From IMG/VR virus record IMGVR_UViG_3300007770_000007, positions 1 through 64,000 of that record: DNA of 64,000 nt; one strand, given 5' to 3'. A program made the position numbers and the translations under genes. Shown here piece by piece: positions 7,898 through 48,371 of this stretch. A model generated the notes under the pieces. It searched no databases, was not told the DNA's origin, and saw only the letters and a list, made by a program, of their open reading frames with translations. Source of the DNA: a virus. Position 1 is the stretch's first letter, and each line of letters starts with the position of its first letter.

Positions 7898-7926
7898 TGT
7901 AGGTACTGTGTGAACTGGAGAACCTC

Positions 7927-8844: not shown

Positions 8845-8892
8845 GGGGGTCTTTCGTGGGTTCGGGTGGGTACTTCTGTGTGGAGGTATCCG

Positions 8893-12571: not shown

Positions 12572-12648
12572 GGGTCTTATTGGGGGGTCTGACCGTCCTG
12601 CTGGCGGGTAAGAGTGTGTGACCCTTTACGGGAGATAGGAGTTTCAAC

Positions 12649-13572: not shown

Positions 13573-14956
13573 TACCAAGTATCGACCTCTCACCTATGAC
13601 GAGGTGCTGGGACAGGACGCCACAGTAGAGGTCTTGCGCCAGTTCGTGCGTGAGGGTCGGGGCTTCCACCAATCCTATGTATTCTGCGGGCAACACGGCT
13701 CTGGCAAGACCACCTTGGGTCGCATCCTGGCCCGCTCACTCCTTTGCGAGAACCCCCAAGAAGGAGGGCCTTGCGACTCTTGCACCTCTTGCATCTCTAT
13801 TCTGGAGAAGGGTGCTTCAGAATGCTTTGTCGAACTCGATGCTGCCACGAAGTCAGGCAAGGCTGACGTAGCCAAGATTGTAGAGGACATCGGATACGCC
13901 ACCTTTAGCGGTAAGCGGTGCATTTACCTCTTTGACGAAGCACACCGGCTTTCCAAGCAGGCGCTCGATGCGCTGTTGAAGCCGATGGAGGATTGTGTCC
14001 AGGGGGTCGAGGACAAACAGTTGGTGTGCATCTTTGCCACCACAGAGCCAGACAAGATGCGCTCTACTATCTTTTCTCGATGCGCCCCGGCCTTCGTCAT
14101 CAGGCAGGTGAGTTCCAAGGCCATTGGGGAGCGATTGGCACAGGTCTGTTCCCAGGAAGGCTTGGAGTATGAGTTGCCTGCCTTGGAGCTTATCGCTGAC
14201 CACAGCGAGAGCCATATTCGTGACGCCCTCAAGATGGTCGAGGGCGTTTCTATGGTGGGGCCTGTAACCACCGCTGCGGTTTCATCGTATCTTCGCCTGG
14301 ACGCTAACCAGTTGGTGTGGGACCTTCTCCAGAGCATCAAGGCTGACTTGCCGATGGCGTTGCTCTCAGCCAAGACCTTGTCCGATGAGGTTTCCCCCTC
14401 CGTAGCCTACGAGCGCATCGCGGCAGCCGCTCTTCTGGCTTATGAGACAACGCTGGGGGTGGGGAAAGTTCCTCGCTACTGGGACGAGGAACAAGTGGCG
14501 GCATTGGGGTCTTCTTTAGGAGAGGGCCTGTTGCCTATCGCAGAGGTTTTCGCGGCCCCTCCCCGTCGCCCCACAAGGCGTTCCCTTGTGCTTGACGTTG
14601 CCCGTTCGCATCACGGGACCGGGGTCTTTGTGGCAGCCCCCGGAATCACGCCTGCCGCACCCTCTACACAACGGGAAGACTTGTCACTGTCAAGGGTGGG
14701 TACTGTTGACAGACGTAAGGAGTCTGCTCGTGCTGCCCACACCACTAAATCAGGGGTTTTCGTTGATCCTCGTGCTGTTGGAAGCGGTACAGGGGTCGGC
14801 AAGCAGCCGGTTTCACGGGACAAACCGCCTACTATCAACGATTCAAGCGCCGCTCTTGAGCCGCATGTTTTCCAGACCATCCTTCAAGTCCGTCTGGCAG
14901 AGTTGAGGCGGCAACGTGGCAGATTCTCGGGACGAAACAACATGGGTGGTTCTTGA
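13562..14956 (+). CDS. dnaX: DNA polymerase III gamma/tau-like clamp loader
   Basis: 464 residues. It opens with FDTKYRPLTYDEVLGQD, typical of DnaX. Walker A GQHGSGKTT is near residue 42, a four-Cys zinc module (CENPQEGGPCDSCTSC) near 62-77, Walker B YLFDEAHRLS near 121, and the SRC motif (IFSRCAP) near 171. These features define the AAA+ loader subunit that opens the sliding clamp. Residues 330-464 are low-complexity and basic and may bind polymerase or helicase. The gene overlaps both neighbours. It supports reading the product at 9162 as a clamp. Confidence 0.92.
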   Translation: MAFDTKYRPLTYDEVLGQDATVEVLRQFVREGRGFHQSYVFCGQHGSGKTTLGRILARSLLCENPQEGGPCDSCTSCISILEKGASECFVELDAATKSGKADVAKIVEDIGYATFSGKRCIYLFDEAHRLSKQALDALLKPMEDCVQGVEDKQLVCIFATTEPDKMRSTIFSRCAPAFVIRQVSSKAIGERLAQVCSQEGLEYELPALELIADHSESHIRDALKMVEGVSMVGPVTTAAVSSYLRLDANQLVWDLLQSIKADLPMALLSAKTLSDEVSPSVAYERIAAAALLAYETTLGVGKVPRYWDEEQVAALGSSLGEGLLPIAEVFAAPPRRPTRRSLVLDVARSHHGTGVFVAAPGITPAAPSTQREDLSLSRVGTVDRRKESARAAHTTKSGVFVDPRAVGSGTGVGKQPVSRDKPPTINDSSAALEPHVFQTILQVRLAELRRQRGRFSGRNNMGGS

Positions 14957-15461
14957 ACTGACAAGGCTCGGGGAGCAGAAGGCAGAGGAGGGAGAGCTTC
15001 CTGTGCTGCTGCAAGACGCCCTGAATGTTGGAAACGACTGGCCCGTGTTCGTTCCCTGCGTGGTCTACGAGCGTGACAACACGCGCATTGTCCTCAATAT
15101 GATGGAGGGCTACGTTTTTGTCGCTGCCGGGTTACCAGAGAGTACCTACATCGCTCTCGAACACGATTGCGCCTACATCCGTCAAGTGTTGTGTCACCAC
15201 CAACAGGGTGGTGTGGCCGTTCTATCAACGATTCCTGATTCAAACCTTGACGAGATACGGGCCGGTCTTCGTAAAATGATCGCGGTGGAGATTGAAACGG
15301 GTATGCAGGTCGAGGTGGTGGACGGGCCATACGCGGGGTTGTCTGGAAACGTGGTAGAGCTTGAGGGGGACAATGCTCATGTCTACGTTGAGATGAGGTC
15401 CCTCAAGGCTATACGGTCCATTCCTCGCACCGTACTTCGGCCTAAAACAGCAAACGGGTAG
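14916..15461 (+). CDS. NusG-like transcription factor (NGN plus KOW)
   Basis: 181 residues from GTG 14916, overlapping the end of dnaX by 41 bases. WPVFVPCVVYERDNTRIVL followed by EGYVFVAAGLPE near residue 65 resembles the NGN domain of NusG/RfaH. Residues about 128-175 form a KOW domain with MQVEVVDGPYAGLSGNVVEL. NusG-type factors bind RNA polymerase and change elongation or termination. Next to a sigma-like gene, it is likely part of phage transcription control, for example read-through of terminators. Confidence 0.78.
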   Translation: MADSRDETTWVVLELTRLGEQKAEEGELPVLLQDALNVGNDWPVFVPCVVYERDNTRIVLNMMEGYVFVAAGLPESTYIALEHDCAYIRQVLCHHQQGGVAVLSTIPDSNLDEIRAGLRKMIAVEIETGMQVEVVDGPYAGLSGNVVELEGDNAHVYVEMRSLKAIRSIPRTVLRPKTANG

Positions 15462-22948: not shown

Positions 22949-25900
22949 GTGGCTCCTCGTCACCCAAATCCTGAAGCGGTAGCGACACTGAAGCAGGCCG
23001 AGATGTCCACAGAGGCATCGGTGGCCTTGATGAAGTGGCTCTCCCGAGTCACCCGAAAGGCCGGGGTAGCGCAGCACGTCTACGTCGTCGGCGGTGCCGT
23101 CAGGAACTTCCTGCTTGAGAAGCCCATCAAGGACATAGACATGGTGGTGGATTCTCTCGCACTGCGCGGGAATCGTGACGCCGCTTGGGTGGCGCAGCAG
23201 GTAGCCCGTGCAATCCCCGCCCCTACCAAGGTGTGGACCGATAGCCTGATGGTTTCTCATATCACTGTGGAGGGTCCTTGGAGCCTTGACGGCCATCAGA
23301 TGGAGGGGGAGGAGATCGAGATCGTCAACGCTCGCTTGGAGGAGTACGCGGTTGACCCCCAGACAGGTGAGTACACCGGACACAAGCCGGAACGGGTCGA
23401 ACCCACCACGATGGAGATCGACATTTCTCGCCGCGAGTTCACGTTCAATACATTGATGTGGACGCTGCTGTCGCTCGCCAATGGCCCTGACAAGGCCGAA
23501 ATCATTGACCTCACGGGGTGTGGTCTAAAGGATCTAAAAAACCGCGAGATGCGCTGCCCTGGCGACCCCGACGAGACATTCGCGCAGGACCCCACCCGGA
23601 TCATCCGCACCATCAAGTTCGCCTTCAAGTACGGCATGAAGCTGCCGCCCGACGTGAAGGCAGCAGCTATCCGGCAGGCCAAGGGACTCAAACGCATCCC
23701 TTCCAAGACCCAGAGCATTCTTCAGAAGATTGTGTTGGATAACCCCCAATACAAGAAAGCCCTTGATGTCATGGATCGCCTTGGCGTGAACGCAGTCATC
23801 AAGGAGATAATGCTGGAGAACAAGCCCTTTCGGTCCTTTATGGAGAGCCACGCCAGAAAGAAGGGTGTTGCTTACATGCTTGATCTGATGGACGTGGGCA
23901 TCCCTGTAGGCGCTCCAATCTCTTTCCTTGATGCAGCGCAGCAGAAGCGTTTTCGGGAAGTAACGTCTGTTATGGATCGTGACGCCGCTTTGGATTTTTT
24001 GGGTATGTTGCGCCAGACGGGCAGTGCCTTGGGAGGGGCTACCCTGGCTTTGGCGCAAGAGCACGGCTATCGACAAAACGAAATGCGGGATTTTTCACCC
24101 GTCTTGAATAGGGTTGTGCGGGACCTTCTCCTCGAAGATCCTTCTTTGGCGGCTTCTTCATCGAGGCTCGTTCAGCGGGTTCGTCGGGAACTGCCTCGTC
24201 AACTGCCCCGACGGGCAAGCTCTGCTTTGGTTTACGGCACCCCTTCGGATGCCGACCGCGCAACTATGGAAGCCCCCACTCCCATATTTCCCCTCGCGTT
24301 CGAGGATTTTCACCTGATCCCGCCCCCCGACCAGGAGGAAACCCTTGAGGAGCTTCAAGACCTACGCGAACTCGCTGAAGAACAGCGCCCGGAAGCTGAA
24401 GAGTTCATCAAGGAGTCTGATGGGGAGATTCTCCATCTCTTTGATCGTCTGTGGCGCGATCATGGTGTCCGAGTCGATAAGAGGTGGATGCGAGAGATGG
24501 TCAAACAGGCGAAAACCCACGTCGCCAAGCTGAAGTGGCACTTCAATCGCCCACGTCCATATCAGGTAGGGGACGCTATCGGACAGCCCTTCGAGGCACT
24601 TGCTTCAGAAACGGCCCACTCCCCTTCGTACCCAAGCGGTCATGCCATCCAAGCGTTCCTCTTGGGAGAGGCATCAAGCCGCCTGGACCCCGAACATGCG
24701 GCTGAATACTTTGATTTGGTTGACCAGATTGCGTGGGGTCGGGCGCAAGCAGGCTACCACTGGCCCAGTGACATCCTCTACGGCGTTGAAGTTGCTGACC
24801 ATATGGCTGACTTCATGGATGTTCCCGAGGCTTGGAGTCCTCGCGTGGCGCGGATCATGGAGAGGAGGGCTTCACACGCCCTACAGAGGCATCGCTGGGC
24901 CAAGACGTTCACCGTCAACAAGGGCGATCCTATCTGGTACGGGAAGTATAAGAACAAGCGGGGGATCATTGATGGGTTCAGCACCAACGAGAAGGGTGAC
25001 GTGATCATCACCGTCGAACAGGTGCCTAATCCAACTGGCCGCAAGCAGCCCAAAGAGTTGAAGCTGTTCCGGGTGCGCCCCCGAGAGGTGGAGGAGGGCA
25101 AGGAGGCAAGCCCCCGTCGCGTCGTAGCCAAGTACAAGAGCAAGAAAGAGGTGCCCAAAGCAGACGGCAGCGGGACCACCACTGTTTACGAGTACGGCCC
25201 TCGGCAGGTAGCCCAACGCCATAAAGAAAAGGCCAAGAGATTGGAGGGGTTGAAGGCATCCCTTTCTGATTTGAGGGGTCAGGTTTCGGAGGACATGGTG
25301 TCAGACGACCCGGAGACGAGGCTTACGGCTTTGGCGGTGGCGTTGCTCGACAAGACTTATGAGCGCGTGGGTAACGAGAAATCCGCTGATGATCGTGGCC
25401 ATTTTGGAATCACGACCTTGCGGGTCAGCCACCTGGACCTGAAGGACAAGAAAGCCACCTTTGAGTACGTTGGCAAGAGCGGGGTGAAGCAGAAGAAGGT
25501 TGTGACGGACCCTCAAATCATTGAGGTTCTCAAAGCGGCAGTGGACGGAAAAGAGGGTGACGAGCGCATTCTGTGCGACGGCGATGATTGTCAGATTCGA
25601 GCGCGGCACGTCAACGGTTACCTCAAGCCGTTTGACATCACGGCCAAGGATCTTCGGGGGCTACATGCCAATGAGGAGATGCGTGTTCGGTTGAAGGATG
25701 TTCGCAAGAAGGGCGAGAGCCTTCCCCGAGGTCGAAAAGACCGAGACAAGATCCTAAAGGCAGAGTTCAAGGAAGCATTGGAGGCGGTTGCAGAGGCGGT
25801 GGGGCATCAGGCATCCACGCTCCGGTCCCAGTACCTCGTGCCAGGGCTGGAGGACTTCTACATGAAGGACGGGACTGTTATTGATGATTTGGCCAAGGCT

Positions 25901-28090
25901 GCCTCTCTGGGTCGGGATGCAGGCTTTCGTTCGTGGCTCATGGGGATCGTCAGTAAGTCCACGGTGGTCAAGGCGATCTTTGAGTGGGGTGAGCAAAAGC
26001 TGGACGGCCCAGCGGATCTTCCAGGAGGGTTGGTTCCCGAGGGCTACATCTGGAAGATGGGCGGTAGTTGGTACGCCAGCATTGGAGATGGTTTCCGGGT
26101 CCAGAAATACAGGAGCGAGCGCGAAGCTACCCGAGGGGTTCGGTTCTCGCGTGTGGCTCATACGCTTCTCCTGAAGCAAGCCACGAAGTCTGAAGCAGAG
26201 CGTGAAGAGGAAGAGGCCCAGCGACTTGTGCGTAAGTCCCCCAAGAAAAAGCCGCCTCGGGTGGACCTGGAACGCCGTCATGTCGAGGATTCGGATTCCG
26301 AAAGGGATCCCGATAAAGAGCAAGATCGGAAGGATACGTCCCACAACTTCAAGGACATCGCCGCCTCGATGGCCGCTCGGCGTGTAGCTTTTCGGTACAG
26401 GAAGGCCGAGGAGTTTACGGAGCAAGAGTGGAAGACGTATAAATCCAAGCACCCAGGGGCCAATAAGGACGACCACACGATCCGGTCAATAGGTGAGGAC
26501 GACGAGGATGGGGGTGCGTCCGAGGATACCTGGGAAGAACTTTCCTCTGATGAGCAAATGGATCTCTTGGCAGAGGGCGCAGGGACCGAGTTTGGGAAGA
26601 TTCAGGACGAATACCCCAACACCACGATCACTGAAGAAGACGTCCAGGACATGATGATGGAGCAAGCTGCGGAAGGGGTGGACCCTTTCAGCCCAGCAGC
26701 GGCCAAGGAACGCAAGGACCAGATCAAGAGCCAAGCGGCGATGGATTCGGCGTCCAACAACCTCGTCCTCCTTACCCAGTCTTTTGGAGGTGACGGGTCC
26801 GAGAAGGTTGAATCAGCCCTTCAAGGCTTGAAGGGTGATGACCGGGCAACATTCCTTGAATCATATGAGAAGGCGCAGGAAACCGCCAAGGCGCGGGACT
26901 CTGCGGTTCGAGGCGACCCTGCCGCCCGTAAAGAGTTGCTCACCCTTGCCGAAAGCCTTGATGCGGTTCTGGCCTCCATCAAGGACGGAAACCCAGGCGT
27001 GATGGGAGAGGTGCTGGCGCTATTCGAGTATGCCTCGAAGGTTCTGTTCAATCCTTCCCTCATAGACCCCGCCAACCCAGTCTCCGATAGCCAGGGTGTC
27101 GTGACGGGCGACGACCTCGCGAAGTCGAAAAAGCGCAGCGCAACTCATGCTGCGAATGCCTTTGAACGCTTCAAGGAGGCAAGCCCCGAGGAACGCGCCC
27201 ATTCCCGTGAAGCACTCGCCCAGCAGTTGGAGGGTCTTCCTGACGGGTCTGCCGCGAAGGTGGAGCTTCAAGGTGTTGTTTCAGGACTGCTTGCCGCGTC
27301 AGCTTTGCATGACGGGGAAGAGGCTACTGGCGTCGGACCTACGATGCAGCTTCTCGTCAAAGCACTCGATAAGGCTGGGGCAGCAGGTCCCGATGGGGCC
27401 TTGTTTGCACCGGTTGGGGGCGACCTTTCCACTCCAGAGGCGCAGGAGGGCATCCGGGCCGCCCTCACTGACGTGCTTGACGAAGACTGGGGAAGTTTGG
27501 TCGAGGAGGATGACCCCATCTTCCCTATCGCGGAGTTGTTGAGTGATGAATCCGCTGATTTGGGGATGGAGGATAAGCAGTTTCTTCGCACAATCATTGC
27601 TGATTATTTGACGGATGAAATCACGGTGGTGGAAGAGGCGACTCGCGAGGATCATCAAAAGGATGAGCCTACTACGGGCGACGTGAAGCAGAGCTTGAAG
27701 GAGCGCCGGAAGAAGGACAAGTCTCGGATGACGTCTGCCCTTCGGGATGCGAAAGGTCAGTTCTTGGACCAATCCGCTATTGACGAGGCGCAGGGTTCTG
27801 GGGCGAAGCAGGATGACGAAGACGCCGATACTTCTGCCGAGTCCGAGGGTGCAGGGTCGGAAGACACAGAAGAAAAGAAGGAGGAGGGTGCAGAGCGGAA
27901 GAAGGGATTCTTCGCCGCCCTTCTTGATGCCATCTTCCCTGATTCGAGAAAGGATAAATGGCAAGCCATCGTTGAAGGCGACGAGCCTGAATCTTCGACG
28001 GAAAAGACAGCCCTTGATCGTTATGATTTGCAGCCGTGGGACACTTCCAAACTTCCAACGGGAAACTCTGTCCCGTTAGATGCGCGGTAA
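22949..28090 (+). CDS. Giant multi-enzyme virion-region protein: nucleotidyltransferase, PAP2 phosphatase, topoisomerase IB
   Basis: 1713 residues from GTG 22949 (GGGAG upstream). Domain 1 (about 1-330) is a class II CCA-adding/poly(A)-polymerase-type nucleotidyltransferase: VVGGAVRN (46-53) with D62-I-D64, then RREFTFNTL and DPTRIIRTIKFAFKYG. Domain 2 (about 475-630) is a PAP2/haloperoxidase-fold phosphatase with the full set K527-x6-R534-P535, PSGH 562-565 and R598-x5-H604-x3-D608. A small SH3/KOW-like stretch (about 645-710) follows. Domain 3 (about 730-985) is topoisomerase IB: R806, K843 (GKSG), R903 (TAKDLR), H953 and Tyr962, with spacing like the poxvirus enzyme. The last 650 residues are acidic, coiled and low-complexity. 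It lies among virion genes, so it may be packaged. Confidence 0.88.
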   Translation: MAPRHPNPEAVATLKQAEMSTEASVALMKWLSRVTRKAGVAQHVYVVGGAVRNFLLEKPIKDIDMVVDSLALRGNRDAAWVAQQVARAIPAPTKVWTDSLMVSHITVEGPWSLDGHQMEGEEIEIVNARLEEYAVDPQTGEYTGHKPERVEPTTMEIDISRREFTFNTLMWTLLSLANGPDKAEIIDLTGCGLKDLKNREMRCPGDPDETFAQDPTRIIRTIKFAFKYGMKLPPDVKAAAIRQAKGLKRIPSKTQSILQKIVLDNPQYKKALDVMDRLGVNAVIKEIMLENKPFRSFMESHARKKGVAYMLDLMDVGIPVGAPISFLDAAQQKRFREVTSVMDRDAALDFLGMLRQTGSALGGATLALAQEHGYRQNEMRDFSPVLNRVVRDLLLEDPSLAASSSRLVQRVRRELPRQLPRRASSALVYGTPSDADRATMEAPTPIFPLAFEDFHLIPPPDQEETLEELQDLRELAEEQRPEAEEFIKESDGEILHLFDRLWRDHGVRVDKRWMREMVKQAKTHVAKLKWHFNRPRPYQVGDAIGQPFEALASETAHSPSYPSGHAIQAFLLGEASSRLDPEHAAEYFDLVDQIAWGRAQAGYHWPSDILYGVEVADHMADFMDVPEAWSPRVARIMERRASHALQRHRWAKTFTVNKGDPIWYGKYKNKRGIIDGFSTNEKGDVIITVEQVPNPTGRKQPKELKLFRVRPREVEEGKEASPRRVVAKYKSKKEVPKADGSGTTTVYEYGPRQVAQRHKEKAKRLEGLKASLSDLRGQVSEDMVSDDPETRLTALAVALLDKTYERVGNEKSADDRGHFGITTLRVSHLDLKDKKATFEYVGKSGVKQKKVVTDPQIIEVLKAAVDGKEGDERILCDGDDCQIRARHVNGYLKPFDITAKDLRGLHANEEMRVRLKDVRKKGESLPRGRKDRDKILKAEFKEALEAVAEAVGHQASTLRSQYLVPGLEDFYMKDGTVIDDLAKAASLGRDAGFRSWLMGIVSKSTVVKAIFEWGEQKLDGPADLPGGLVPEGYIWKMGGSWYASIGDGFRVQKYRSEREATRGVRFSRVAHTLLLKQATKSEAEREEEEAQRLVRKSPKKKPPRVDLERRHVEDSDSERDPDKEQDRKDTSHNFKDIAASMAARRVAFRYRKAEEFTEQEWKTYKSKHPGANKDDHTIRSIGEDDEDGGASEDTWEELSSDEQMDLLAEGAGTEFGKIQDEYPNTTITEEDVQDMMMEQAAEGVDPFSPAAAKERKDQIKSQAAMDSASNNLVLLTQSFGGDGSEKVESALQGLKGDDRATFLESYEKAQETAKARDSAVRGDPAARKELLTLAESLDAVLASIKDGNPGVMGEVLALFEYASKVLFNPSLIDPANPVSDSQGVVTGDDLAKSKKRSATHAANAFERFKEASPEERAHSREALAQQLEGLPDGSAAKVELQGVVSGLLAASALHDGEEATGVGPTMQLLVKALDKAGAAGPDGALFAPVGGDLSTPEAQEGIRAALTDVLDEDWGSLVEEDDPIFPIAELLSDESADLGMEDKQFLRTIIADYLTDEITVVEEATREDHQKDEPTTGDVKQSLKERRKKDKSRMTSALRDAKGQFLDQSAIDEAQGSGAKQDDEDADTSAESEGAGSEDTEEKKEEGAERKKGFFAALLDAIFPDSRKDKWQAIVEGDEPESSTEKTALDRYDLQPWDTSKLPTGNSVPLDAR

Positions 28091-28102: not shown

Positions 28103-28144
28103 TTCACCCTATGAGCGAGACTTGTGCTCGTGGAATCCCTGTCC

Positions 28145-28170
28145 TTACAGGACCCCCTTACAGGACCCCC
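28145..28170 (+). repeat. Tandem 13-base direct repeat in a 5' leader
   Basis: TTACAGGACCCCC occurs twice head to tail (28145-28157, 28158-28170). A degenerate third unit (TTACTGGAGA) provides the ribosome binding site of the gene at 28187. Confidence 0.85.
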
Positions 28171-28186
28171 TTACTGGAGAATCGTC

Positions 28187-29248
28187 ATGGCCGACAACCT
28201 TACCCGGAGCGGGGCACGGGCCTTCACCGAGACCCTTGACCGTATCGCTACCGCCGTTCAACACAATGCAGCCCTTTTGGGCCTCCCCTCGAACATTGCC
28301 ACCGACTTCGCCTTCCGCTGCGATTTGGTTAGCGATGCGGTGGAGAAGCAAGCGGCGGCCAACTTCCCTTTGAAGCAAGCTGACTTCAACGCCGATGAGA
28401 TTGGCGAAGAGGTTCCGGGTCCTTTGGTTGATGATCCTCCCAATGCACAGATCGATGAACACTTCACCCAAGAGAAGTTCCACGAGCTTACCGAGATGGC
28501 AGACGCCGAAGAAGCCGCCGACAAGCTGGCTTCTCTGATGGAAGAGGCAGACCGCGTGATGGAAGCCGCGATGCCCACCATCAACGTCCAAGGATTCCGG
28601 GGCTTTACGGATCAGGTTCGCCGTTTAGACGAACTCTCCACCGAAATCGAGATGCTTGAAGCAGAGCTTGAGGCCGCCACCAGCGGCCTTTTGTCGCGCA
28701 AGAAGGATCTCGACAAGGAGATGAAGGCCGCCGTTGAGGTTCTCAAGAAAGACTACAAGGAGAATCTTTCGGCACAGGGCAACGTCATCATCGAGCGCAA
28801 GACCGCTCTGGTGGACGCCCAGGCAAGGTTGGCAGTCGTTGCTCGCAGGCGCACTCCGCAGAAGGTCCGGGATGAACTCCTGGCCGCTCTTGCCGAGGAG
28901 TACGGTGAGAGTATTCGTCAGCGCCTTCCTGAACTGGAGAACGCACTGCGCGAAGAAAAGAAGACTATGGCTGTCGCCTTCAAGGGATTCGAGCTTGAGA
29001 TGCGTACCGCGTCCGTTGCTGACAAGAACGCTGGTGTCCTCGACAAGCTGGTTCGCTTCCGCGAATGGCTCGTTGGTGGCCTGAAGCGCATTGTCGGTAT
29101 GGCAGAGCAGGCCACTCGTCTTTTCAAGGGCGTGGGCCGCAAGATGGAGAAGGACACCTCCATGTTCCTGCGGGAACTCGACCAGTTCGAGTCCGAGATG
29201 GGCAAGGCTGCCACCGAAGTCCACGGTTTCGATTTCTTTTCCGAGTAG
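28187..29248 (+). CDS. Coiled-coil virion-region protein, 353 aa
   Basis: ATG 28187 follows CTGGAGAATCGTC. Residues about 140-290 form a long charged coiled coil (LDELSTEIEMLEAELEAATS, KDLDKEMKAAVEVLKKDY). The N-terminal part is helical with an acidic stretch near 80. Near 310 there is a hydrophobic WLVGGLKRIVGMAE helix. Such proteins occur near scaffold and protease genes in phages; a core or internal head role is a guess. Confidence 0.65.
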   Translation: MADNLTRSGARAFTETLDRIATAVQHNAALLGLPSNIATDFAFRCDLVSDAVEKQAAANFPLKQADFNADEIGEEVPGPLVDDPPNAQIDEHFTQEKFHELTEMADAEEAADKLASLMEEADRVMEAAMPTINVQGFRGFTDQVRRLDELSTEIEMLEAELEAATSGLLSRKKDLDKEMKAAVEVLKKDYKENLSAQGNVIIERKTALVDAQARLAVVARRRTPQKVRDELLAALAEEYGESIRQRLPELENALREEKKTMAVAFKGFELEMRTASVADKNAGVLDKLVRFREWLVGGLKRIVGMAEQATRLFKGVGRKMEKDTSMFLRELDQFESEMGKAATEVHGFDFFSE

Positions 29249-29257
29249 GAGTCTCCG

Positions 29258-29824
29258 TTGAAGACCGGCACTAACAACGTCAACTGGCAAGAGAGAGCCA
29301 CAGAGTTCTCTGTCGGTGATCTCGTGGGAATCTTCGGAGCCTACGAGTCTCAAGCAGGCCGCGTAACAGCGGTCTGGCCTGCTATTGGCATGATTGATGT
29401 TGAAATGCCTAACGGCAACAAGCGGTTCCCTGCGGAAGACCTCCAGCGTTACGACGGCAACGGTAACGCAGCCCCGCCTACCACAGACTCTGCTCCGGGA
29501 GGCCAGCCTACGGTTTCGGTTCCAGGAGGCCCTTACGGTAAGAGCGCGTCTGCTGAAAGAGTTGCTGAAGCAGCCGTGCGTAGAGCTTTGTACTGGGCAT
29601 CCACGGATCGTAAGTACAAGTTGACCCGCTCTGAAAAAGACGGTGGGGCTATCGGTTGTCCCAAGTGCAAGGAAGGCTCCCTCAAGCGAGCAATCTACAA
29701 GCGTAGGGACGGTGCCAGCGAGCGCCTGATGGGATGTCCTGGGTGCATGTTTCTCATCAAGGAACTCGATATTGTGAACTTCCTTGGGGATAACGCTGAA
29801 CTTGAAGTCGGAGAGGAGGGTTAG
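29258..29824 (+). CDS. Zinc-ribbon protein with SH3-like N-terminus
   Basis: 188 residues from TTG 29258 with TAGGAG six bases upstream. Residues about 18-65 (FSVGDLVGIFGAYESQAGRV, MIDVEMPNGNKRFPAEDLQ) look like an SH3/KOW-type barrel. A Gly/Pro/Ser linker follows. Residues about 133-168 hold CPKC and CPGC pairs separated by 24 residues, a typical zinc ribbon. The linker contains AERVAEAAVRRALYWA, similar to the RVAxR peptides elsewhere. Situated directly before the prohead protease. Confidence 0.68.
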   Translation: MKTGTNNVNWQERATEFSVGDLVGIFGAYESQAGRVTAVWPAIGMIDVEMPNGNKRFPAEDLQRYDGNGNAAPPTTDSAPGGQPTVSVPGGPYGKSASAERVAEAAVRRALYWASTDRKYKLTRSEKDGGAIGCPKCKEGSLKRAIYKRRDGASERLMGCPGCMFLIKELDIVNFLGDNAELEVGEEG

Positions 29825-29826: not shown

Positions 29827-31239
29827 ATGGCTTTTGCCAAGTACGCCAAGGCGATGGTCCTCCATCCTCGTGTCAATGCTGCCTCTTGGGGCGGTATGCA
29901 GCGTACTGCGTCTTCTACCCCCACCCGCGACCTCTCCGCGCAAGCCACCACGATTCTCGGCACTCCTTTTAGCCCGGACCAGTACCTCCTTACCCACTGC
30001 ACTATTGTGGGATCGGTTGAGGTAGAGAAGGTAGCGGGCGCGAAACTCGGGAACGTCAAGATCGGCAGCCGTACCATCAACCGTAAGTACGCCGACTACT
30101 ACATCTCCCCTGAATCATCCGCGATGGTGAACAACAACGGGGATTCCTGGAGCCGGGATGTCTTGCTGAAGTCTTACCGGACTTTCATCGGCTCCCACAA
30201 CTTCCAGGAGCATGTCCAGATTGAGGAGCAGTCGAAGGGCCGCATCATTGATGCCGTAGCCCGTGACGTTGGCTCTTCGGTTTATATCGACATCCTCGTT
30301 GCCACTGACCGAAAGCACGCAGCACTTGTCCAGGACATTGAATCCGGCAAGATTGCAACGCTCTCTATGGGCTGCACCACGGATTTCACCATCTGCACGA
30401 AGTGCGGTCATGTTGCCGCTGATGAGACTGAACTTTGCGACCATATTCGGTATGCGAAGCTCAACACTTTCATGGATGGCGGCGGCAAGAAGCGCGTGAT
30501 TGCAGAGCTTTGCGGCCATCCCGACTACGATGAGACGGGTGGCGTGACGTTTATCGAGGCGTCTTGGGTAGCGACCCCGGCCTTTTCCGGCGCTGTCATG
30601 CGGAACATTTTGAGTCCTGCGGAGGCCACCTCCCAGACCCAGAAGTTGGAACAGGTCCTCTCCGCGCCCCCAGAGGCATGGTCGCAGGACGCGATTGCGA
30701 AGGCAGCCTCTACGGTACGCGCCTTTGGTTTTGGCGAGGATGATGAAAAGCCCGCCGAAGAGGCACCCGCTGATTCAGGGAAGCCTTTCACTGACATCGA
30801 AGACCAAATCTACGACATGGTGAAGAAGCGCGTTCAAGAGCGCCTTCAGAAAGACATGGCTGATTCCAACGTGGAAGAGCAACTGGATAACCCAGGTCCT
30901 CCGTCCACTTGGCCCAACGACACCCTTCAAAAAGAGGGCAAGCTCCACCAGTACAAGACTGCTATTCAGACGGTTGTGCGGGTGGCGTCCTCTGACGTAG
31001 CCCTCGTTGACGGGGTTGCTGCGGTCAATGATTCCTACGGAGTCAAAGTTGCACGGGACATTTACCGTGCGGTTTTGGCTGCGGGAACCCCTTCGAGCCA
31101 TCCTGACTTGAAGTCCTTTCTTGCTGCTCTTGGCTCCGCTACGGGTCGCAAGATGTCCTCTGCCGAAGTTCGGGTAGCAATCCGAGTCGGCTATCTGCTT
31201 TCCCGCCGGGCGAGCAAAACCACTCAATCCGTTACCTGA
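29827..31239 (+). CDS. Putative prohead protease with embedded Cys cluster
   Basis: 470 residues. SHNFQEHVQIEEQSKGRIID (about 123-142) followed by VQDIESGKIATLSMGC (about 168-183) fits the His and Ser arrangement of HK97/gp21-type head maturation proteases. Right after the Ser motif comes a Cys/His cluster (TICTKCGHVAADETELCDHI and later ELCGHP), probably a metal site inserted in the protease fold. ASWVATPAFSGA follows, as in other phage proteases. The C-terminal 200 residues are helical and end LLSRRASKTTQSVT. The scaffold gene is immediately downstream, the standard order. The catalytic residues are assigned by eye. Confidence 0.75.
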   Translation: MAFAKYAKAMVLHPRVNAASWGGMQRTASSTPTRDLSAQATTILGTPFSPDQYLLTHCTIVGSVEVEKVAGAKLGNVKIGSRTINRKYADYYISPESSAMVNNNGDSWSRDVLLKSYRTFIGSHNFQEHVQIEEQSKGRIIDAVARDVGSSVYIDILVATDRKHAALVQDIESGKIATLSMGCTTDFTICTKCGHVAADETELCDHIRYAKLNTFMDGGGKKRVIAELCGHPDYDETGGVTFIEASWVATPAFSGAVMRNILSPAEATSQTQKLEQVLSAPPEAWSQDAIAKAASTVRAFGFGEDDEKPAEEAPADSGKPFTDIEDQIYDMVKKRVQERLQKDMADSNVEEQLDNPGPPSTWPNDTLQKEGKLHQYKTAIQTVVRVASSDVALVDGVAAVNDSYGVKVARDIYRAVLAAGTPSSHPDLKSFLAALGSATGRKMSSAEVRVAIRVGYLLSRRASKTTQSVT

Positions 31240-31258: not shown

Positions 31259-32581
31259 ATGAGTCGCGAACGAATGACCTGGACCGATGACAAGCAGGCT
31301 TCTGAAGCCCCTGCAACCCCGTCCGACAGCGAGGGAGCCGCAAGCCCCGCCGCCAAGGAAGACCCCGCACCAGAGGCTTATGCCAAGGGCGACACTGAAG
31401 AGTGGGCCGAAGGCAAGGACGAGTCTCCTGTGGTGGAAAGCGAAGCACCTGCTGTGCCCAGCGAGAGGCAGGCTGCTGCCATGCTTGAGCGCAAGGCTGC
31501 CAAGTGCATCCGTCTTGCAACTGCCATGCTTGGTGATGGCGCTTCTGTAGAGGCCATCGAAGACCAAGCTCTCGCCTTTATGGATATGGACGACCGTGCC
31601 CTCCATTCTTCCCTTTCTCGCCTTGGCGAAGATGCAGAGAAGAAGAAAGAGGACGAGGAAGGCGCAGAGGCAGAGGCAGCAAAGACCATCCAAGAGGACA
31701 AGGAGCACGCTGCTGAAGCCAAGAAGGCCGATGATTCTGCTGACGAGGCCATCGACAAGGATGATGCCAAGGCTGCTGAAGAGGATCTCGCCAAGGAAGC
31801 TACCGACAAGGAAGCTGTCGAGAACCGTCTTGCCAAGATCGAGGAAGCCTTGAGCATCCTTGTGGGAAAGAAGGCCGAGGATGACAGCGGCGACGAGGCT
31901 ATGGACGACGACAAGAAGGCTTCGGGCCACTTGGACGAAGACGAAGCCATGCTCGAAGCCATGCTTGCCGAGGAAGGCATGATGGAGAAGCCCGAGGCTA
32001 TGGAAGACCCCGAGGCGATGCTTGAGGAGATGCTTGCTGAAGCAGAAGCCGAGGCTATGGCCGAGGAAGTTGCCGAGGCCATGTCCGCAGACCCCGGTGT
32101 TCCCGGTGAGGAAGCCCTCTACGAAGATGGCGAGTCGCATGATCCGGGCGACCATGATCCCGACGGCTTCGAGGAGTCGATGGTGGTGGACGAGGCTGTC
32201 ATGATGGCAGATCCGGTTGTCGATGATCCGATGGGCGTCATGGCTCGCGACCTGGACGAAAAGGATAGCGAGATGCTCGCAGTTCTCTTCGGCAAGCAGG
32301 CTGACGACGATGACGACGAGGACAAGGACGAAAAGGAAGACCACGACGAGGGTGCCATCAAGGATGATGAGGACCACATCGAGTCCCTTGAGGAAGACAA
32401 GGACGAGGAAGAAAAGGACCTCAAGAAAGAGGAAAAGAAGGCGGCCCGTAAGCCCCAGCCTAAGAAGGCCAGCAAGGGCGCGAAGCGTCTTGGCGGTGTC
32501 TCCAAGTCGGCAGGCAACGAGGTCGGCAACCTTTCCCAGCTTTGGGAGTCTGCTCCCGACGTGAGCCGGTTCTTCAACTAA
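31259..32581 (+). CDS. Acidic capsid scaffolding protein
   Basis: 440 residues dominated by Glu, Asp, Ala, Lys and Met, extremely acidic and helical. The only compositionally normal part is the C-terminus: a basic stretch (KPQPKKASKGAKRLGG) followed by LSQLWESAPDVSRFFN, a likely capsid-binding tip. Phage scaffold proteins co-assemble with the capsid protein and are removed by the protease, whose gene is just upstream. The start ATG has AAGGAGAATAGTC. A terminator-like hairpin follows the stop. A long open reading frame on the other strand is a by-product of the repetitive composition. Confidence 0.82.
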   Translation: MSRERMTWTDDKQASEAPATPSDSEGAASPAAKEDPAPEAYAKGDTEEWAEGKDESPVVESEAPAVPSERQAAAMLERKAAKCIRLATAMLGDGASVEAIEDQALAFMDMDDRALHSSLSRLGEDAEKKKEDEEGAEAEAAKTIQEDKEHAAEAKKADDSADEAIDKDDAKAAEEDLAKEATDKEAVENRLAKIEEALSILVGKKAEDDSGDEAMDDDKKASGHLDEDEAMLEAMLAEEGMMEKPEAMEDPEAMLEEMLAEAEAEAMAEEVAEAMSADPGVPGEEALYEDGESHDPGDHDPDGFEESMVVDEAVMMADPVVDDPMGVMARDLDEKDSEMLAVLFGKQADDDDDEDKDEKEDHDEGAIKDDEDHIESLEEDKDEEEKDLKKEEKKAARKPQPKKASKGAKRLGGVSKSAGNEVGNLSQLWESAPDVSRFFN

Positions 32582-33474: not shown

Positions 33475-34347
33475 ATGTCAGTTGCAAACTCTGTGAAGCA
33501 GAAGCTGATCAGCGACTACATCGGTACTCCCCAGGGACGTGCCAAGCTCGCTGCATCAATGACTCAACCCCTGCGGCTTCGTCGCGACTACATGGCAGTG
33601 GGTCGTAAGACCTTCCTTGTCGAGCAGTTGCCCGACGGTGCCCTGCCGATTTACGACAAAGATCCTGATGTTACGGCATATGTGGTCGGTGAAGAAGGTG
33701 AGAACATTCTTGCCATCACCAAGCCTCGCCGCGTCATCTTTCCTTTGTTCGAGATCGCGTCCAACCCGGAGATCCCCCTGACCCAGATCAAGGAGCGTCG
33801 TTTCGACCTCATTGAGCGGGCACAGGATCTCGCCCGTGCCCAGATTCAGGCTGCTGAAGATGAGCGCGTGTTCGCCGTCCTTGACGCTATCGCAACCACT
33901 GGTTTCGACAGCATCGCTGGTGGTACGAACCCCGACACCCCCGTTGTTGCACCGATTAGCGGAGCCGTCCTTGCTGACGCCTTCTCGCTCATCGAGCGCC
34001 ACGACCTCCGGGTTGCTCGCGTGTTCATGAACGCTCGCGACTACGCTGACCTGCGTAAGTTTGGCCGGGACATCTTGGACATCGAAACGCAGCGCGAACT
34101 GCTGAAGACCGGCCTTATGGGCACCCTCTGGGGCGCACAGGTCATCGTCAGCCGCCTTGTCCCCGTGGGCACGGTGTATGTTTGCTGCGAGCCAGAGATG
34201 TTTGGACGTATCCCCGTCCGTACCGAACTGACCGTTCTTTCCGCAGACGATCCGAAGGCTCGCACCATCGGCTTCTCCTGCTTCGAGAACCTGGGTCTTG
34301 GTGCCTACAACCCCCGTGGTTTGGCCCGACTGACCATCACTCGGTAG
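33475..34347 (+). CDS. Major capsid protein, HK97-like
   Basis: 290 residues, AAGGAGTACACACA upstream. The layout is that of a compact HK97-fold capsid protein: N-terminal helix, an E-loop-like stretch (RKTFLVEQLPDGALPIYDKD), a long spine helix (RFDLIERAQDLARAQIQAAEDERVF in pattern, about 107-131) and a P/A-domain core with MNARDYADLRKFG, LWGAQVIVSRLVPVGTVYV and the final FENLGLGAYNPRGLARLTI. Gene order protease, scaffold, accessory, capsid supports it. Strong terminator follows, consistent with high expression. Confidence 0.85.
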   Translation: MSVANSVKQKLISDYIGTPQGRAKLAASMTQPLRLRRDYMAVGRKTFLVEQLPDGALPIYDKDPDVTAYVVGEEGENILAITKPRRVIFPLFEIASNPEIPLTQIKERRFDLIERAQDLARAQIQAAEDERVFAVLDAIATTGFDSIAGGTNPDTPVVAPISGAVLADAFSLIERHDLRVARVFMNARDYADLRKFGRDILDIETQRELLKTGLMGTLWGAQVIVSRLVPVGTVYVCCEPEMFGRIPVRTELTVLSADDPKARTIGFSCFENLGLGAYNPRGLARLTITR

Positions 34348-34672: not shown

Positions 34673-35278
34673 ATGTCTGATACCCCCGCCCGTCACCGCT
34701 TGATTCGCCTCGCCTCTACGTTGCCCAAGGGCAGCACGGAGCGTGGAGAGATCCTCTCCATTCTTGCCGCTGACGCTGACCACCTGAAGAAGCACCAGTT
34801 CGACAGCGAGAACAACCCCAATCCCAAGGGGAATGACAAGGACGGTGACGGCGAGACTAACGAGCCGAGTCCCGTGAAGGACAAGAAGGCTGCCCCTTGT
34901 GATGACGCCCCCGCTCCCTTCAAAGAGCAGTGCTTGAAGAAGGTTGAAGAAGGGAAGAAGAATGAGGACAAGAAGGAAGCCGGTGGTGGCTGCGACTCTC
35001 CCAAACTTCCCGACGCCCTGAAGGCACAGTGCAAGGAGAAGGAGAAGGAAGGCGACAAAGAGGCCAAGGAAAAGTACCCCTGGGATGATTGTATTGCCGA
35101 TCAGATGAAGGAATACGGCAGCAAGGAAGTTGCTGAAAAGGTTTGCGGTAAGATCCGGGCCGAGAGCCAGGGCCTCAAGTCCGCTGCTGATTTCCGCAGA
35201 AGCCTGATTCGGATGGCTGCCGAGATGCCCAAGGGCGATGCTTCCCGTAAGAAGCTCCTCACACTTCTCAAGTCCTAA
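34673..35278 (+). CDS. Hydrophilic Lys/Glu-rich virion-region protein with duplicated terminal motif
   Basis: 201 residues. The N-terminus LIRLASTLPKGSTERGEILS and the C-terminus LIRMAAEMPKGDASRKKLLT are clear copies of one peptide. The middle is a highly charged, probably disordered stretch with several Cys. Residues about 138-165 carry WDDCIADQMKEYGSKEVAEK, then VCGKI, a C..G..E.A...CG pattern seen in phage structural proteins. Strong binding site CTGGAGACAGTC and an upstream candidate promoter. Function unknown. Confidence 0.65.
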   Translation: MSDTPARHRLIRLASTLPKGSTERGEILSILAADADHLKKHQFDSENNPNPKGNDKDGDGETNEPSPVKDKKAAPCDDAPAPFKEQCLKKVEEGKKNEDKKEAGGGCDSPKLPDALKAQCKEKEKEGDKEAKEKYPWDDCIADQMKEYGSKEVAEKVCGKIRAESQGLKSAADFRRSLIRMAAEMPKGDASRKKLLTLLKS

Positions 35279-35907
35279 TGATTCAGCCATCGCCTTCAAG
35301 AGTAGCTGCCCGTTATGCGGCATCCCCTCCCACGCTTCGGCAAGTGAAAGCCCTTTTGAGGCGCACGGGAATCGAAGGTGAGTTGTCAGGGCGTGGGCGC
35401 GATTGGTCCGTGGAGTTGCCTGATAGCCGCACTTCTGACGCCTTCCAGAAAGCCTACCAAAAGGCTTTTCGTGCTGGGGTTGGGGGTTACCGTACTGGCT
35501 ACGGTGCCTGGGTTATGCGCCCAGGCTATGGCGCAGACCCCCATGACTTCAACGACCCTGCTTCCCGGCACCACTACGCCGCGCTCCCAGAGGAGCCTGT
35601 GGTCGGAGACATTCTCTATTCCAACTGGGGATATGACCAGACCAACATCGACTACTACCAGATCATCAAGGCGACCCCAAAGCAGGTCGTCATAAAGCAG
35701 CTTCTCAAGAAGGTTGTGAGCACGGGCCGCACTGATGAGAAGGTCATCCCCCTCAAGGGGAAGTTCGATCCAAGAGGGAAGGCTCTCCGTAGAAAGTGGC
35801 GTCCCGGCTACAGCGACGGCATTGCTGTGAGCATCAACTCCTACTCCAGCGCGTATAGTTGGGATGGTCGTCCTAAAAGCCAAACAATGGCCGGGTTCGG
35901 CCACTGA
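35278..35907 (+). CDS. Conserved-type phage protein with SH3-like domain
   Basis: 209 residues, starting in a TAATG overlap. The N-terminus PSPSRVAARYAASPPTLRQV carries the RVAARY peptide also found at 46563. Residues about 100-150 (VVGDILYSNWGYDQTNIDYYQIIKA) form a beta-barrel-like domain. The end is Ser/Tyr-rich. No enzymatic motif seen. Probably virion-associated given its neighbours. Confidence 0.65.
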   Translation: MIQPSPSRVAARYAASPPTLRQVKALLRRTGIEGELSGRGRDWSVELPDSRTSDAFQKAYQKAFRAGVGGYRTGYGAWVMRPGYGADPHDFNDPASRHHYAALPEEPVVGDILYSNWGYDQTNIDYYQIIKATPKQVVIKQLLKKVVSTGRTDEKVIPLKGKFDPRGKALRRKWRPGYSDGIAVSINSYSSAYSWDGRPKSQTMAGFGH

Positions 35908-35928: not shown

Positions 35929-36564
35929 GTGAGCACACTGGAGGGTGAGGTGCTCATAGCAGTTTCAGGGACTATCGGTGTCGGCAAATCCACTCTCTGC
36001 GCGAGGCTTGCTGGCGAGACCGGTTTTACCCTGATTCCAGAGCCGGTGTCCACGAACCCCTACCTCGCTGACTTCTACATAGATCCGACGAGATGGGCCT
36101 TTACAGCCCAGATATTCATGATCACGGATCGCTTCCGTCGGCAGCAGGAGATCACTGATAGCAGTGAGGGCTATCTTTTGGATCGGTGTCTTCACGAGGA
36201 TTGGGTATTTGCCCAAGTTCTCTACGAAATGGAACACCTGTCTGAACGAGAGTGGGAGACGTACAAAGGTCTTCACCGCTCTCTTATTGAGGTGGTCCCG
36301 GTTCCAGATGCCGTTGTCTACTTGCGGGTTCCCCCCGAGGAGGCTCTCCAGCGCATCGGTTCCAGAGGCAGAGCTTCCGAGATGGCGATTTCCTTGGACT
36401 ACCTCTCCCATCTTCATCGCGTGTATGAGGAGTGGGCTACCCGTATGTCTACCATCACAAGGGTGGTCGCTATGGATTGGCGTTCCTACGGGGATGTAGC
36501 CGAGGTTGTTGGTCGTCTGCCTACACCAAAGAGGGCGGTATCCTCAAATCAGACGTTTTCATGA
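35929..36564 (+). CDS. Deoxynucleoside kinase
   Basis: 211 residues from GTG 35929. P-loop GTIGVGKST at about 14-22, then EPVSTNPYLADFYIDPTRW and AQIFMITDRFRRQQ (about 38-72), the DR motif LLDRCLHEDWVFA (about 82-94), and a lid-like RIGSRGRASE (about 141-150). These are hallmarks of the deoxyadenosine/deoxyguanosine and thymidine-kinase-2 type family, which phosphorylates deoxynucleosides to supply dNMPs for phage DNA. Substrate cannot be read from sequence. The last 44 bases overlap the convergent sulfotransferase gene. Confidence 0.85.
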   Translation: MSTLEGEVLIAVSGTIGVGKSTLCARLAGETGFTLIPEPVSTNPYLADFYIDPTRWAFTAQIFMITDRFRRQQEITDSSEGYLLDRCLHEDWVFAQVLYEMEHLSEREWETYKGLHRSLIEVVPVPDAVVYLRVPPEEALQRIGSRGRASEMAISLDYLSHLHRVYEEWATRMSTITRVVAMDWRSYGDVAEVVGRLPTPKRAVSSNQTFS

Positions 36565-46562: not shown

Positions 46563-48371
46563 GTGCCGCGTCCATCCCCTGCTCGTGTAGCTGCCCGATA
46601 TGCGGATTTGAACCCGCCGTTGGGCTATCCGGGCGGCCCGTGCCACGTCATGCAGCGCATCCGAGATGAGGTGAGGAACCCCAAACTCCAGGAGAAGCTC
46701 GTTGATTCAGTGGAAGACGGCGACAAGCTGTCTAACCCTGAAGCAGCGGCCATCTATGATCTGGAAGTGGACCGTGGGGCTGGCAGGTTCAAGAAACTCC
46801 GCATCACTCCCCATGCCCAGTACCGGATGGACCAACGGGGAATCATCGTCAACGAACTCCGCATCGCCCTCAAGTCTTTCCAGAAAGCATGGAACGATGA
46901 CAAGTCTCGTCAGGGGTATCGCTGGCGTAACTGGGAAGAGGACATGGCAAGAGGCCAGCCGATTCGTTGGGAAGATCCCCAAATCAAGCTGGCGGTGGTG
47001 TTTACCGCCAACCGTGATGTCGCTACGCTTGTTACCGCTTATTGGGAAGGGCAGCCTGACCCTCGTCCAGAGGATGAGGACTCCTGTTCGGTTCGGGTTG
47101 GCTTGAAGATTGCCCCTACGCCGGGGGTTCAGACTTATGTCACCGAAGACTCTGCGAAGGGGATTCCTCCCAGTAACGATAGCAGGGAGCCTGATTCAGC
47201 AGCCCCTCTTCCTGGAAGCGCCGTTCCTGGAGGGGCTGGTCGAGAAATCGGCAAGTTCGAGTACAACACTCCCGATTCGAGTTCGGACATAAAGCCTCGC
47301 ACGTTGTCGGAGCCGGGAGAGCAGCGAGGCCATCCCACTAATGTCCTCGACAACTACATCACCCGACGCACCTTTACCTCTGCTCTTGTAGAGGCGTGGG
47401 AGGCAGGGCCTCCGGGTCCGAGGCGGCAACATCGCCAGAAGCCTGCGGAGCGCAGGCGGCAGAACCGGGAGGAGTACCGCCCCAACCGCATGATAAAGAG
47501 GCGCATGGCGCTGAAGCGGTATCACCAGTTCTGTAAGCGAAACCGTCAGTGCAAGATGAAAAGAGAGTTGTATAGGAAACACCCGCAGCGGTACAAGCGC
47601 AGAGCGCCGCGCTCGGTGAAGAAACTCCCCAGGCTTCTCAAAGAGGGCGGGGACATCATCCTTTACGATCAGTGGAACCCTGCCAACAACGAAATCAAAC
47701 AGCCCGGTCCCGACGTGAACTATCGCGCAGAGGGTCCGACGACTTACGAGTTCAGGCCGGATGAGCGAGAGGGAGTTCCTCCAGGACACGCTCCTCCAAG
47801 TAACCAGACCGAAGATGTTCCTCCTGCTTCAAGCAGGGTCATTCCCGATGAGATGAAGGAAAACCTCCGGGACAACCTGACTTATGTGCAGGCGGCACCC
47901 AACTTGAGAGTGGCAGCTACCATAGGTCAAGTCCTCTCGAAGTGTGATTCCACGATCTTGAATCGCGCCAAAGCAGTCCGAATCAGCCCTTACCGGTTCA
48001 ATCCGGCGAAGGGTTTTTGGAGCTTCAAGGCTGCCGGGAGCCAGGGCACCTACATTGTGCGTGTCAAGGGAGTCCGTCGAGGCAACGTGAAGAACTTGGA
48101 CAAAGCCCAGATCAAAGTGTCTTGCTCTTGTCCTTTCTTTCGGTGGCAAGGACCAGAACACTGGGCCAAGCAAGGACAGTATCTTTACGGTCGTCCTGTA
48201 GGTACTGCCTCCAATCCCAAGGTCATGGACCCGAAAGGCCACCACGGAGCGTGCAAGCATGTAGTTGCTGCTTTGAGCAAGGCGAGGGGCTGGCGGTTCA
48301 GTTCTGAAGGCACCCTCTGGGACCAAGATGCAGTGGTTATCTTGGACGAGGATGCCCTGTTGAGTGGGTAA
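46563..48371 (+). CDS. Virion-region protein combining DUF4258-like, basic and SWIM zinc-finger segments
   Basis: 602 residues from GTG 46563 (TGGAGGCTT upstream). The N-terminus has PSPARVAARYADLNPPLG. Residues about 78-165 (LRITPHAQYRMDQRGIIVNE, then a basic helix) resemble DUF4258/BrnT-type RNase-fold domains. Residues about 286-356 are extremely Arg/Lys-rich. The C-terminus has KVSCSCPFF (about 519-527) and ACKHVVAAL (about 563-571), the CxC...CxH pattern of SWIM zinc fingers. The combination suggests a nucleic-acid-binding protein. Whether the DUF4258-like part is active is unknown. Confidence 0.65.
   Translation: MPRPSPARVAARYADLNPPLGYPGGPCHVMQRIRDEVRNPKLQEKLVDSVEDGDKLSNPEAAAIYDLEVDRGAGRFKKLRITPHAQYRMDQRGIIVNELRIALKSFQKAWNDDKSRQGYRWRNWEEDMARGQPIRWEDPQIKLAVVFTANRDVATLVTAYWEGQPDPRPEDEDSCSVRVGLKIAPTPGVQTYVTEDSAKGIPPSNDSREPDSAAPLPGSAVPGGAGREIGKFEYNTPDSSSDIKPRTLSEPGEQRGHPTNVLDNYITRRTFTSALVEAWEAGPPGPRRQHRQKPAERRRQNREEYRPNRMIKRRMALKRYHQFCKRNRQCKMKRELYRKHPQRYKRRAPRSVKKLPRLLKEGGDIILYDQWNPANNEIKQPGPDVNYRAEGPTTYEFRPDEREGVPPGHAPPSNQTEDVPPASSRVIPDEMKENLRDNLTYVQAAPNLRVAATIGQVLSKCDSTILNRAKAVRISPYRFNPAKGFWSFKAAGSQGTYIVRVKGVRRGNVKNLDKAQIKVSCSCPFFRWQGPEHWAKQGQYLYGRPVGTASNPKVMDPKGHHGACKHVVAALSKARGWRFSSEGTLWDQDAVVILDEDALLSG

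Follow-up and report, generated by a model that had tools for sequence, protein, structure and literature searches.

Domain organization of P0001

The DNA analysed here (the window) comprises 64,000 nucleotides of the 77,335-base IMG/VR virus record IMGVR_UViG_3300007770_000007 and encodes, among virion head genes, a protein of 1713 residues, P0001, in which a nucleotidyltransferase of the CCA-adding/poly(A) type, a PAP2 phosphatase domain, a type IB topoisomerase (TopoIB) and an acidic tail share a single open reading frame (ORF; Table 1). Pfam recognizes the three enzyme cores at residues 44–202 (PolyA_pol, PF01743; E = 2.7e-14), 527–613 (PAP2, PF01569; E = 1e-8) and 756–957 (Topoisom_I, PF01028; E = 4.2e-29), in each case above the curated cut-off. 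The original prediction, which had placed three such cores in one uninterrupted frame among head genes, is borne out by these matches in all three of the segments that it singled out, by the neighbouring genes and by dozens of relatives, and every catalytic residue that it named is found at its position in P0001. Relatives were collected by scanning viral contigs, which yielded 39 TopoIB loci and at least 80 (80 of 103) loci of a head maturation protease, designated by L-numbers; domains were called with Pfam on selected large ORFs and with custom-built profiles on all ORFs.

Class II CCA-adding enzymes and poly(A) polymerases possess a head with GG and DxD elements, an RR(D/E)xTxN motif and a helical body, and most CCA-adding-type enzymes carry the form RRDFTxN. 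By sequence and model, the P0001 nucleotidyltransferase displays these class II features, with GG (G48-G49), DxD (D62-I-D64) and RREFT motifs all present in the alignment; the last reads RREFTFN in P0001 and RREFT, RRDFT, RRELS or RRELT in relatives. An AlphaFold2 model of residues 1–745, with a mean predicted local distance difference test (pLDDT) score of 65.5, is good over most of residues ~60–420 and low at 50–61 and 164–193, while its PAP2 portion is poor and was left unused. Residues 13–420 of this model align with the CCA-adding enzyme of Thermotoga maritima (5hc9) with a Z-score of 11.4 and a root-mean-square deviation of 16.5 over 237 residues, and the domain appears to be whole: it extends to about residue 420, matching whole CCA-adding enzymes, so that the predicted family stands but the span of residues 1–330 originally allotted to it was too short. 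None of the NCBIfam CCA tRNA nucleotidyltransferase equivalogs was matched above its cut-off (the best, TIGR02692, reached 67 bits against 438.8), and CCA addition by P0001 is therefore a resemblance and not a proven assignment.

The PAP2 signature, Kx6RP–PSGH–Rx5Hx3D, is represented in P0001 by K527, R534, PSGH at 562–565, R598, H604 and D608, and the closest solved structure is the acid phosphatase 7f18 (E = 3.4e-10). No membrane-like segment is present in residues 441–641, for which the top 19-residue hydropathy is 0.43; an assignment to the membrane lipid phosphatases of the superfamily, which have transmembrane helices, is not supported, nor is the action on a lipid that had been envisaged, in this soluble, acid-phosphatase-like domain.

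The TopoIB pentad (Arg, Lys, Arg, His and Tyr) is intact in P0001 and invariant in all 46 non-redundant rows of the family, which include a distant long-branch type (L068 at 678, L099 and L107). The closest solved structure is 6z01 (DNA topoisomerase I; E = 3.2e-13), which we take to be archaeal, followed by 2f4q (8.8e-10). The entries 2h7f (0.0048) and 1a41 (0.044), presumably poxvirus topoisomerases, score far below 6z01, and a vaccinia-type enzyme, with which the spacing of the catalytic residues had earlier been compared, was rejected as the nearest kin.

Within the acidic tail, an iterated profile search delineated a conserved domain, referred to here as the chassis, that is present in 37 non-redundant ORFs and is predicted by AlphaFold2 (residues 1146–1600; mean pLDDT 84) to be all-helical. 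In all 37 cases no more than 2,364 bases lie between the end of the chassis ORF and the head maturation protease that follows, and one ORF overlaps the protease by 151 bases; since most of these loci were retrieved via the protease itself, this proximity is independent only for those fetched via TopoIB or P0001 (for example L005, L014, L016 and L018). None of 55 BFVD matches to the chassis model reached E ≤ 0.001, the whole model matched no chain of 181 in the PDB at Z ≥ 5 (the best trimmed row gave 5.2) and the profile retrieved nothing better than E = 0.12 from PDB sequences. The modelled chassis is thus left with no convincing known relative in BFVD or the PDB, from which novelty of the fold does not follow. 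The earlier suggestion that the acidic tail may act in packaging is supported indirectly, in that the tail has proved to be the conserved part of the family.

Integrity of the reading frame

Two more IMG/VR contigs (L002 and L003) carry the whole P0001 ORF with 100% identity and a third carries its end, although these may represent the same virus from related samples. A more distant relative, L049, has an identical architecture at 69% identity. The proportion of non-synonymous change is lower than that of synonymous change in 11 of 11 rows, corresponding to the whole ORF and ten segments, and the coding sequence is on this comparison under purifying selection throughout, a result that is qualitative only because synonymous sites are saturated in places.

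Exchange of enzyme partners

The enzymes found together with TopoIB comprise 2H phosphoesterase, HAD_SAK_1 phosphatase, PAP2, CCA-type nucleotidyltransferase, InPase and RNA ligase. At least one of these partners is held by 21 of the 46 non-redundant TopoIB ORFs (2H in 11, PAP2 in seven, nucleotidyltransferase in five, HAD in four, InPase in three and RNA ligase in one). For L044, L087 and L108 the 2H assignment derives from custom profiles and not from Pfam, and for L081 it lies under the Pfam cut-off; matches to a custom `CPD' profile, including those to Pfam tRNA_lig_CPD in L075 and L077, were dropped from the counts because the profile also matched stretches resembling the conserved linker after TopoIB. 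A single ORF in L101 carries nucleotidyltransferase, 2H, PAP2 and TopoIB. In L014, an ORF of 2834 residues (6929–15433) contains InPase, an AstE/AspA- or M99-like peptidase, TopoIB, RNA ligase and the chassis.

On a TopoIB tree, the bootstrap of which had not settled, the partner labels require 16 changes, against a minimum of 11 and a shuffle mean of 20.5, which indicates that partner sets are clustered but changing; L060 (PAP2), L084 (2H and PAP2) and L101 (nucleotidyltransferase, 2H and PAP2), for instance, share one starred clade. The HAD or nucleotidyltransferase domain is fused in some viruses and encoded by a separate upstream ORF elsewhere (L018, L020, L021, L044 and L074). The protease scan provided 25 chassis ORFs uncut by a locus edge, two of them neighbours in L090 and some with less than 500 bases upstream; in the ORF or upstream of it, TopoIB accompanies 12, an RNA-end enzyme (PAP2 included) 13 and both ten.

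The RVAxR[YWF] motif

P0001 and its relatives share a short motif, RVAxR[YWF], that recurs between domains and at the ends of unrelated proteins. A set of 1236 non-redundant ORFs (401,352 residues) holds 74 copies, against 0.66 in shuffled sequences (maximum three in 50 shuffles), an excess that is partly ascertainment because one TopoIB-scan pattern held the motif before TopoIB, where 15 of the 74 lie. The protease-scan patterns contain no such motif, and 590 ORFs from protease-fetched loci hold 18 copies against 0.25 expected. When its elements were permuted, the true order proved the commonest of 360, the second (RV.AR[YWF], with 44) overlapping it. Taking together the window, the phage record and the loci from the P0001 and TopoIB scans, a relaxed form is recognized before TopoIB in 23 of 27 rows. 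Nine motif-bearing proteins other than TopoIB proteins were compared with Pfam: two are barely over the cut-off (L043 with OAS1_C and L098 with SWIM) and seven fall under it; the window ORF at 46521–48371 has DUF4258 and SWIM matches, both below cut-off.

In the 485-kb phage LR745208.1, a 497-residue protein (347195–348688) with a 2H-profile match bears the variant RIASKY some 50 kb away from the head genes, so that genes for motif-bearing proteins may lie anywhere in the genome. The strings RVAARY, RVASRY, RVAARF, RVASRW and RVAxRY were not found as text in the literature searched, which did not extend to subscription papers and preprints.

Head-gene neighbourhood

The genes surrounding P0001 are listed in Table 1. 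A homologue of the conserved neighbour directly downstream follows the chassis as a fusion in L005, L076 and L114, and shares an ORF with TopoIB in L079, in which no chassis was called, and in L108, in which the match precedes the chassis. The head maturation protease had no match among PDB sequences. The very acidic protein that follows it would be scaffold-like by position, and a similar acidic ORF occupies the same place in LR745208.1 (L006). In that phage HAD–TopoIB is followed, in an order matching that of the window, by counterparts of both conserved neighbours, the protease, the acidic protein and the major head protein. The major head protein of the window is 88% identical to that of LR745208.1, in contrast to 42–45% for the protease and ~51% for TopoIB; either a recent exchange of shell genes or very uneven constraint would account for the difference.

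Other window matches are a sliding clamp (9162–10316), a clamp loader (13562–14956), a thymidylate-kinase-like protein (35929–36564) and an endolysin (60924–61739), and a 78-residue ORF on the complementary strand (59350–59586) shows by eye a lipobox-like start and GDSGES repeats. Beyond the window, a 1758-residue protein in L125 (2947–8223) resembles a tail sheath by eye and, if it is one, suggests a contractile-tailed phage. A search for the host through bacterial genomes gave 58 pattern-matching stretches, none of which encodes a relative of the protease.

Table 1. P0001, its domains and motifs, and neighbouring features of the window.
Feature	Coordinates	Strand	Basis or remarks
P0001, multidomain protein, 1713 residues	22949..28090	+	GTG start, no internal stop
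Class II CCA-adding/poly(A)-type nucleotidyltransferase (predicted), residues 13–420, head and helical body	22985..24208	+	Pfam PF01743; model; motifs
PAP2 domain, soluble, acid-phosphatase-like (predicted), residues 500–641	24446..24871	+	PF01569; 7f18; signature residues
Small beta-rich module, residues 649–705, mobile among relatives	24893..25063	+	Iterated profile; strands in model
Motif variant RVVAKY, residues 724–729, directly before TopoIB	25118..25135	+	
Type IB topoisomerase, residues 744–984	25178..25900	+	PF01028; pentad R806, K843, R903, H953, Y962
Mobile insert module (85 residues), residues 987–1071	25907..26161	+	Iterated profile; also in L049, L072, L076
Motif copy RVAFRY, residues 1145–1150, between TopoIB linker and tail	26381..26398	+	ORF of L005 breaks here
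Conserved helical chassis domain in acidic tail, residues 1220–1547	26606..27589	+	Iterated profile search
Neighbour of 418 residues	19534..20790	+	Similarity; relative in L018 (2172–3116) has the motif near both ends
Conserved neighbour	28124..29248	+	Homologues in relatives fused to the chassis or in one ORF with TopoIB
Conserved neighbour, C-terminal part Cys-rich	29258..29824	+	phmmer matches to 105 ORFs, duplicates included
Head maturation protease	29827..31239	+	phrog_18299, E = 1.2e-14
Very acidic protein, encoded between the protease and major head protein genes	31259..32581	+	No PHROG match
Major head protein	33475..34347	+	phrog_2522, E = 1.8e-52
N-terminal motif RVAARY of 209-residue ORF (35278–35907)	35299..35316	+	
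N-terminal motif RVAARY of 616-residue ORF (46521–48371)	46584..46601	+	

Proposed role and alternative explanations

The position of P0001, its chassis and the motif make packaging or injection a well motivated proposal, and we consider it, by a modest balance of probability, to be a head-carried polyvalent protein that delivers an RNA-end-repair and topoisomerase kit together with the DNA, the motif serving in targeting or processing; its packaging, cleavage, ejection and substrates are what we infer. The helical tail at residues 1220–1547 would be a conserved base belonging to the head assembly gene cluster, on which, as on small neighbour proteins, enzymes would be hung, joined or marked by RVAxR[YWF]. 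Base and motif may carry the enzymes into the prohead during assembly; the head maturation protease, whose gene lies close by, may then cleave the polyprotein between its domains, and the resulting pieces would enter the host together with the DNA. Inside the host cell, TopoIB would relax the DNA as it arrives, and the nucleotidyltransferase and phosphatase may mend RNA ends, most likely those of tRNAs cut by host defences; in relatives, further steps in the healing of RNA ends could be supplied by the 2H phosphoesterase, the HAD phosphatase and the RNA ligase. The weaker part of this proposal is the RNA role, as P0001 has no 2H or ligase and its PAP2 domain could act on nucleotides. More tentatively still, RVAxR[YWF] might serve tailed phages of a large group as a general tag for loading enzymes into the head, much as cargo peptides do for encapsulins, being placed at protein ends or between domains and delivering an interchangeable tRNA-repair and topoisomerase kit; we hold this to be plausible with less than even confidence.

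Several observations weigh against such a role. The virus is uncultured. TopoIB and the chassis share one ORF in only 16 of 46 TopoIB ORFs, and the chassis was called neither in the stretch of LR745208.1 bearing HAD–TopoIB nor in several long TopoIB ORFs (for example those of L009, L020, L021, L035, L036, L044 and L045). Among the 25 protease-scan chassis ORFs, some of which have little DNA upstream, no TopoIB was detected in the ORF or upstream of it in 13 cases and no RNA-end enzyme in 12. P0001 itself has no 2H, HAD or ligase domain and therefore no full RNA-sealing pathway. The relaxed motif precedes TopoIB in only five of 19 protease-scan rows, 3080 ORFs that had not been selected as genes contain the strict motif nine times, and enrichment of the relaxed form in LR745208.1 is mild (six against 1.55 expected, the highest shuffle giving four). 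Among 19 coding sequences of the cultured head-module relatives Tunturi_5, Bacillus phage G and Mycobacterium phage Alice, neither the motif nor TopoIB was found, and no cleavage site was identified in the polyprotein.

The motif may instead be a cleavage site or a plain linker with no targeting function, the head maturation protease cutting there to free the enzymes, an option that we regard as unlikely, if still a serious one. It would agree with the absence of all 74 motifs from the interior of the searched catalytic domains, even though these cover 33% of the ORFs bearing both, and with L005, in which the polyprotein is split into two ORFs that part exactly at the motif, each end retaining a copy. 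The motif is, however, internal in only 36 of the 74 cases, lying within 50 residues of the N terminus in 23 and of the C terminus in 15, at which places a cut would free a short peptide only. T4 prohead protease sites end in Glu, and those of SPN3US and phiKZ do so too in the available portions of the published accounts, which also speaks against cleavage at the motif.

Rather less probable is that P0001, although carried in the virion, acts on DNA and nucleotide signals, TopoIB relaxing the genome, PAP2 and 2H domains destroying defence nucleotides and the nucleotidyltransferase modifying something else. TopoIB is the commonest enzyme in the family and in 25 of 46 rows stands without any of the partner types searched for (at least one of these rows, L058, is cut by the contig edge), and PAP2 resembles acid phosphatases; for the 2H domains of polyvalent proteins, RNase action or destruction of nucleotide signals is suggested in the available portions of an earlier survey (PMC5512222). 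On the other hand, the nucleotidyltransferase matches CCA-adding enzymes along its length, and HAD_SAK_1, 2H and RNA ligase, further partners seen in relatives, are RNA-end enzymes.

We think it improbable that P0001 is an ordinary, unpackaged cytoplasmic late enzyme with several functions, its gene lying among head genes by chance. There are tRNA nucleotidyltransferases in other phages that are annotated as ordinary genes, and for several TopoIB ORFs the fetched locus (~10 kb each side) contains no homologue of the protease, but the chassis and its neighbours, variously fused and split, remain beside the protease. Finally, an assembly or gene-call artefact uniting separate genes, which the original prediction had named as its possible undoing, has practically no likelihood and was rejected, as nothing was found in its favour (the ORF does break in L005, but at the motif) and the occurrence of the ORF on several contigs, the same architecture in L049 and purifying selection throughout all contradict it.

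Host defences that cut tRNA act immediately at infection, whereas repair enzymes coded by the phage must first be made; a kit carried in the head would close this delay, being ready before phage gene expression, and the interchangeable partner sets would form a catalogue of the RNA-end enzymes chosen by such phages. The motif, if a genuine tag, would predict which proteins of uncultured phages enter the virion and offer a handle for loading foreign cargo into heads.

Comparison with known systems

A class of polyvalent proteins, occurring in phages and conjugative elements and predicted to be injected with DNA, has already been described (Iyer et al., 2017; PMC5512222), and the claim that P0001 would be a new kind of injected enzyme was therefore too strong. 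Like P0001, with its nucleotidyltransferase, PAP2, TopoIB and chassis, they combine several unrelated activities in one long polypeptide, and, in the portions of that paper available to us, those of phages sit among virion genes, just as P0001 is coded near late genes, with the protease and major head protein downstream. From the part of their repertoire described there, InPase and 2H are shared only with relatives of P0001, which itself has neither. The same portions state that the 2H domains of polyvalent proteins had never been observed alongside RNA ligases; no single ORF here was found to carry both, an RNA ligase being present in L014. The main text has `topoisomerase' once, within the references, and contains none of the terms PAP2, polyA, CCA-adding or TopoIB, and neither the chassis nor RVAxR[YWF] was met in the portions available. 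No report of TopoIB in a phage polyvalent protein was found among the literature matches listed; the class is thus known, while neither the RVAxR[YWF] motif nor the combination of TopoIB with RNA repair was found in the literature searched.

Jumbo phages encode CCA-adding enzymes, 3'-end phosphoesterases and RNA ligases that are predicted to undo host attack on tRNA (PMC7824862). These enzyme types are similar to those of the present family but, in the available portions of that report, are not described as virion cargo; the terms `topoisomerase IB' and `TopoIB' are absent from it, although `topoisomerase' occurs 11 times. A counterpart in a cultured phage is gp88 of Mycobacterium phage Alice, which matches the custom 2H profile (E = 1.2e-6 in a set of 19 proteins) and lies between the portal and the head protease, a place analogous to that of P0001; it is a stand-alone protein without the motif, and there is no TopoIB in the coding sequences checked. 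In the gp88–gp90 region of Alice (NC_028986.1), the protease homologue lies within a 1511-residue protein and the 2H-like gene is close upstream.

In T4 and giant phages, peptides target internal proteins to the prohead, where the prohead protease cuts (PMC5694885; PMC10052503). The T4 capsid targeting sequence thus likewise brings proteins into a prohead that has a maturation protease; as described in the available parts of these accounts, T4 tags are N-terminal and removed, whereas the motif described here is N-terminal, C-terminal or internal. The T4 protein IPII starts MKTYQEFIAEARVGAGKLEA, a faint likeness to the motif consensus that may be chance because IPI and IPIII have no shared ARV stretch; homology to the capsid targeting sequence was not adopted, the likeness being confined to IPII and kept as a hint only. 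Encapsulins present a further parallel, in that a short terminal peptide loads enzymes into a shell of the HK97 fold. The loading idea proposed for P0001 is similar, the shell in this case being the phage capsid.

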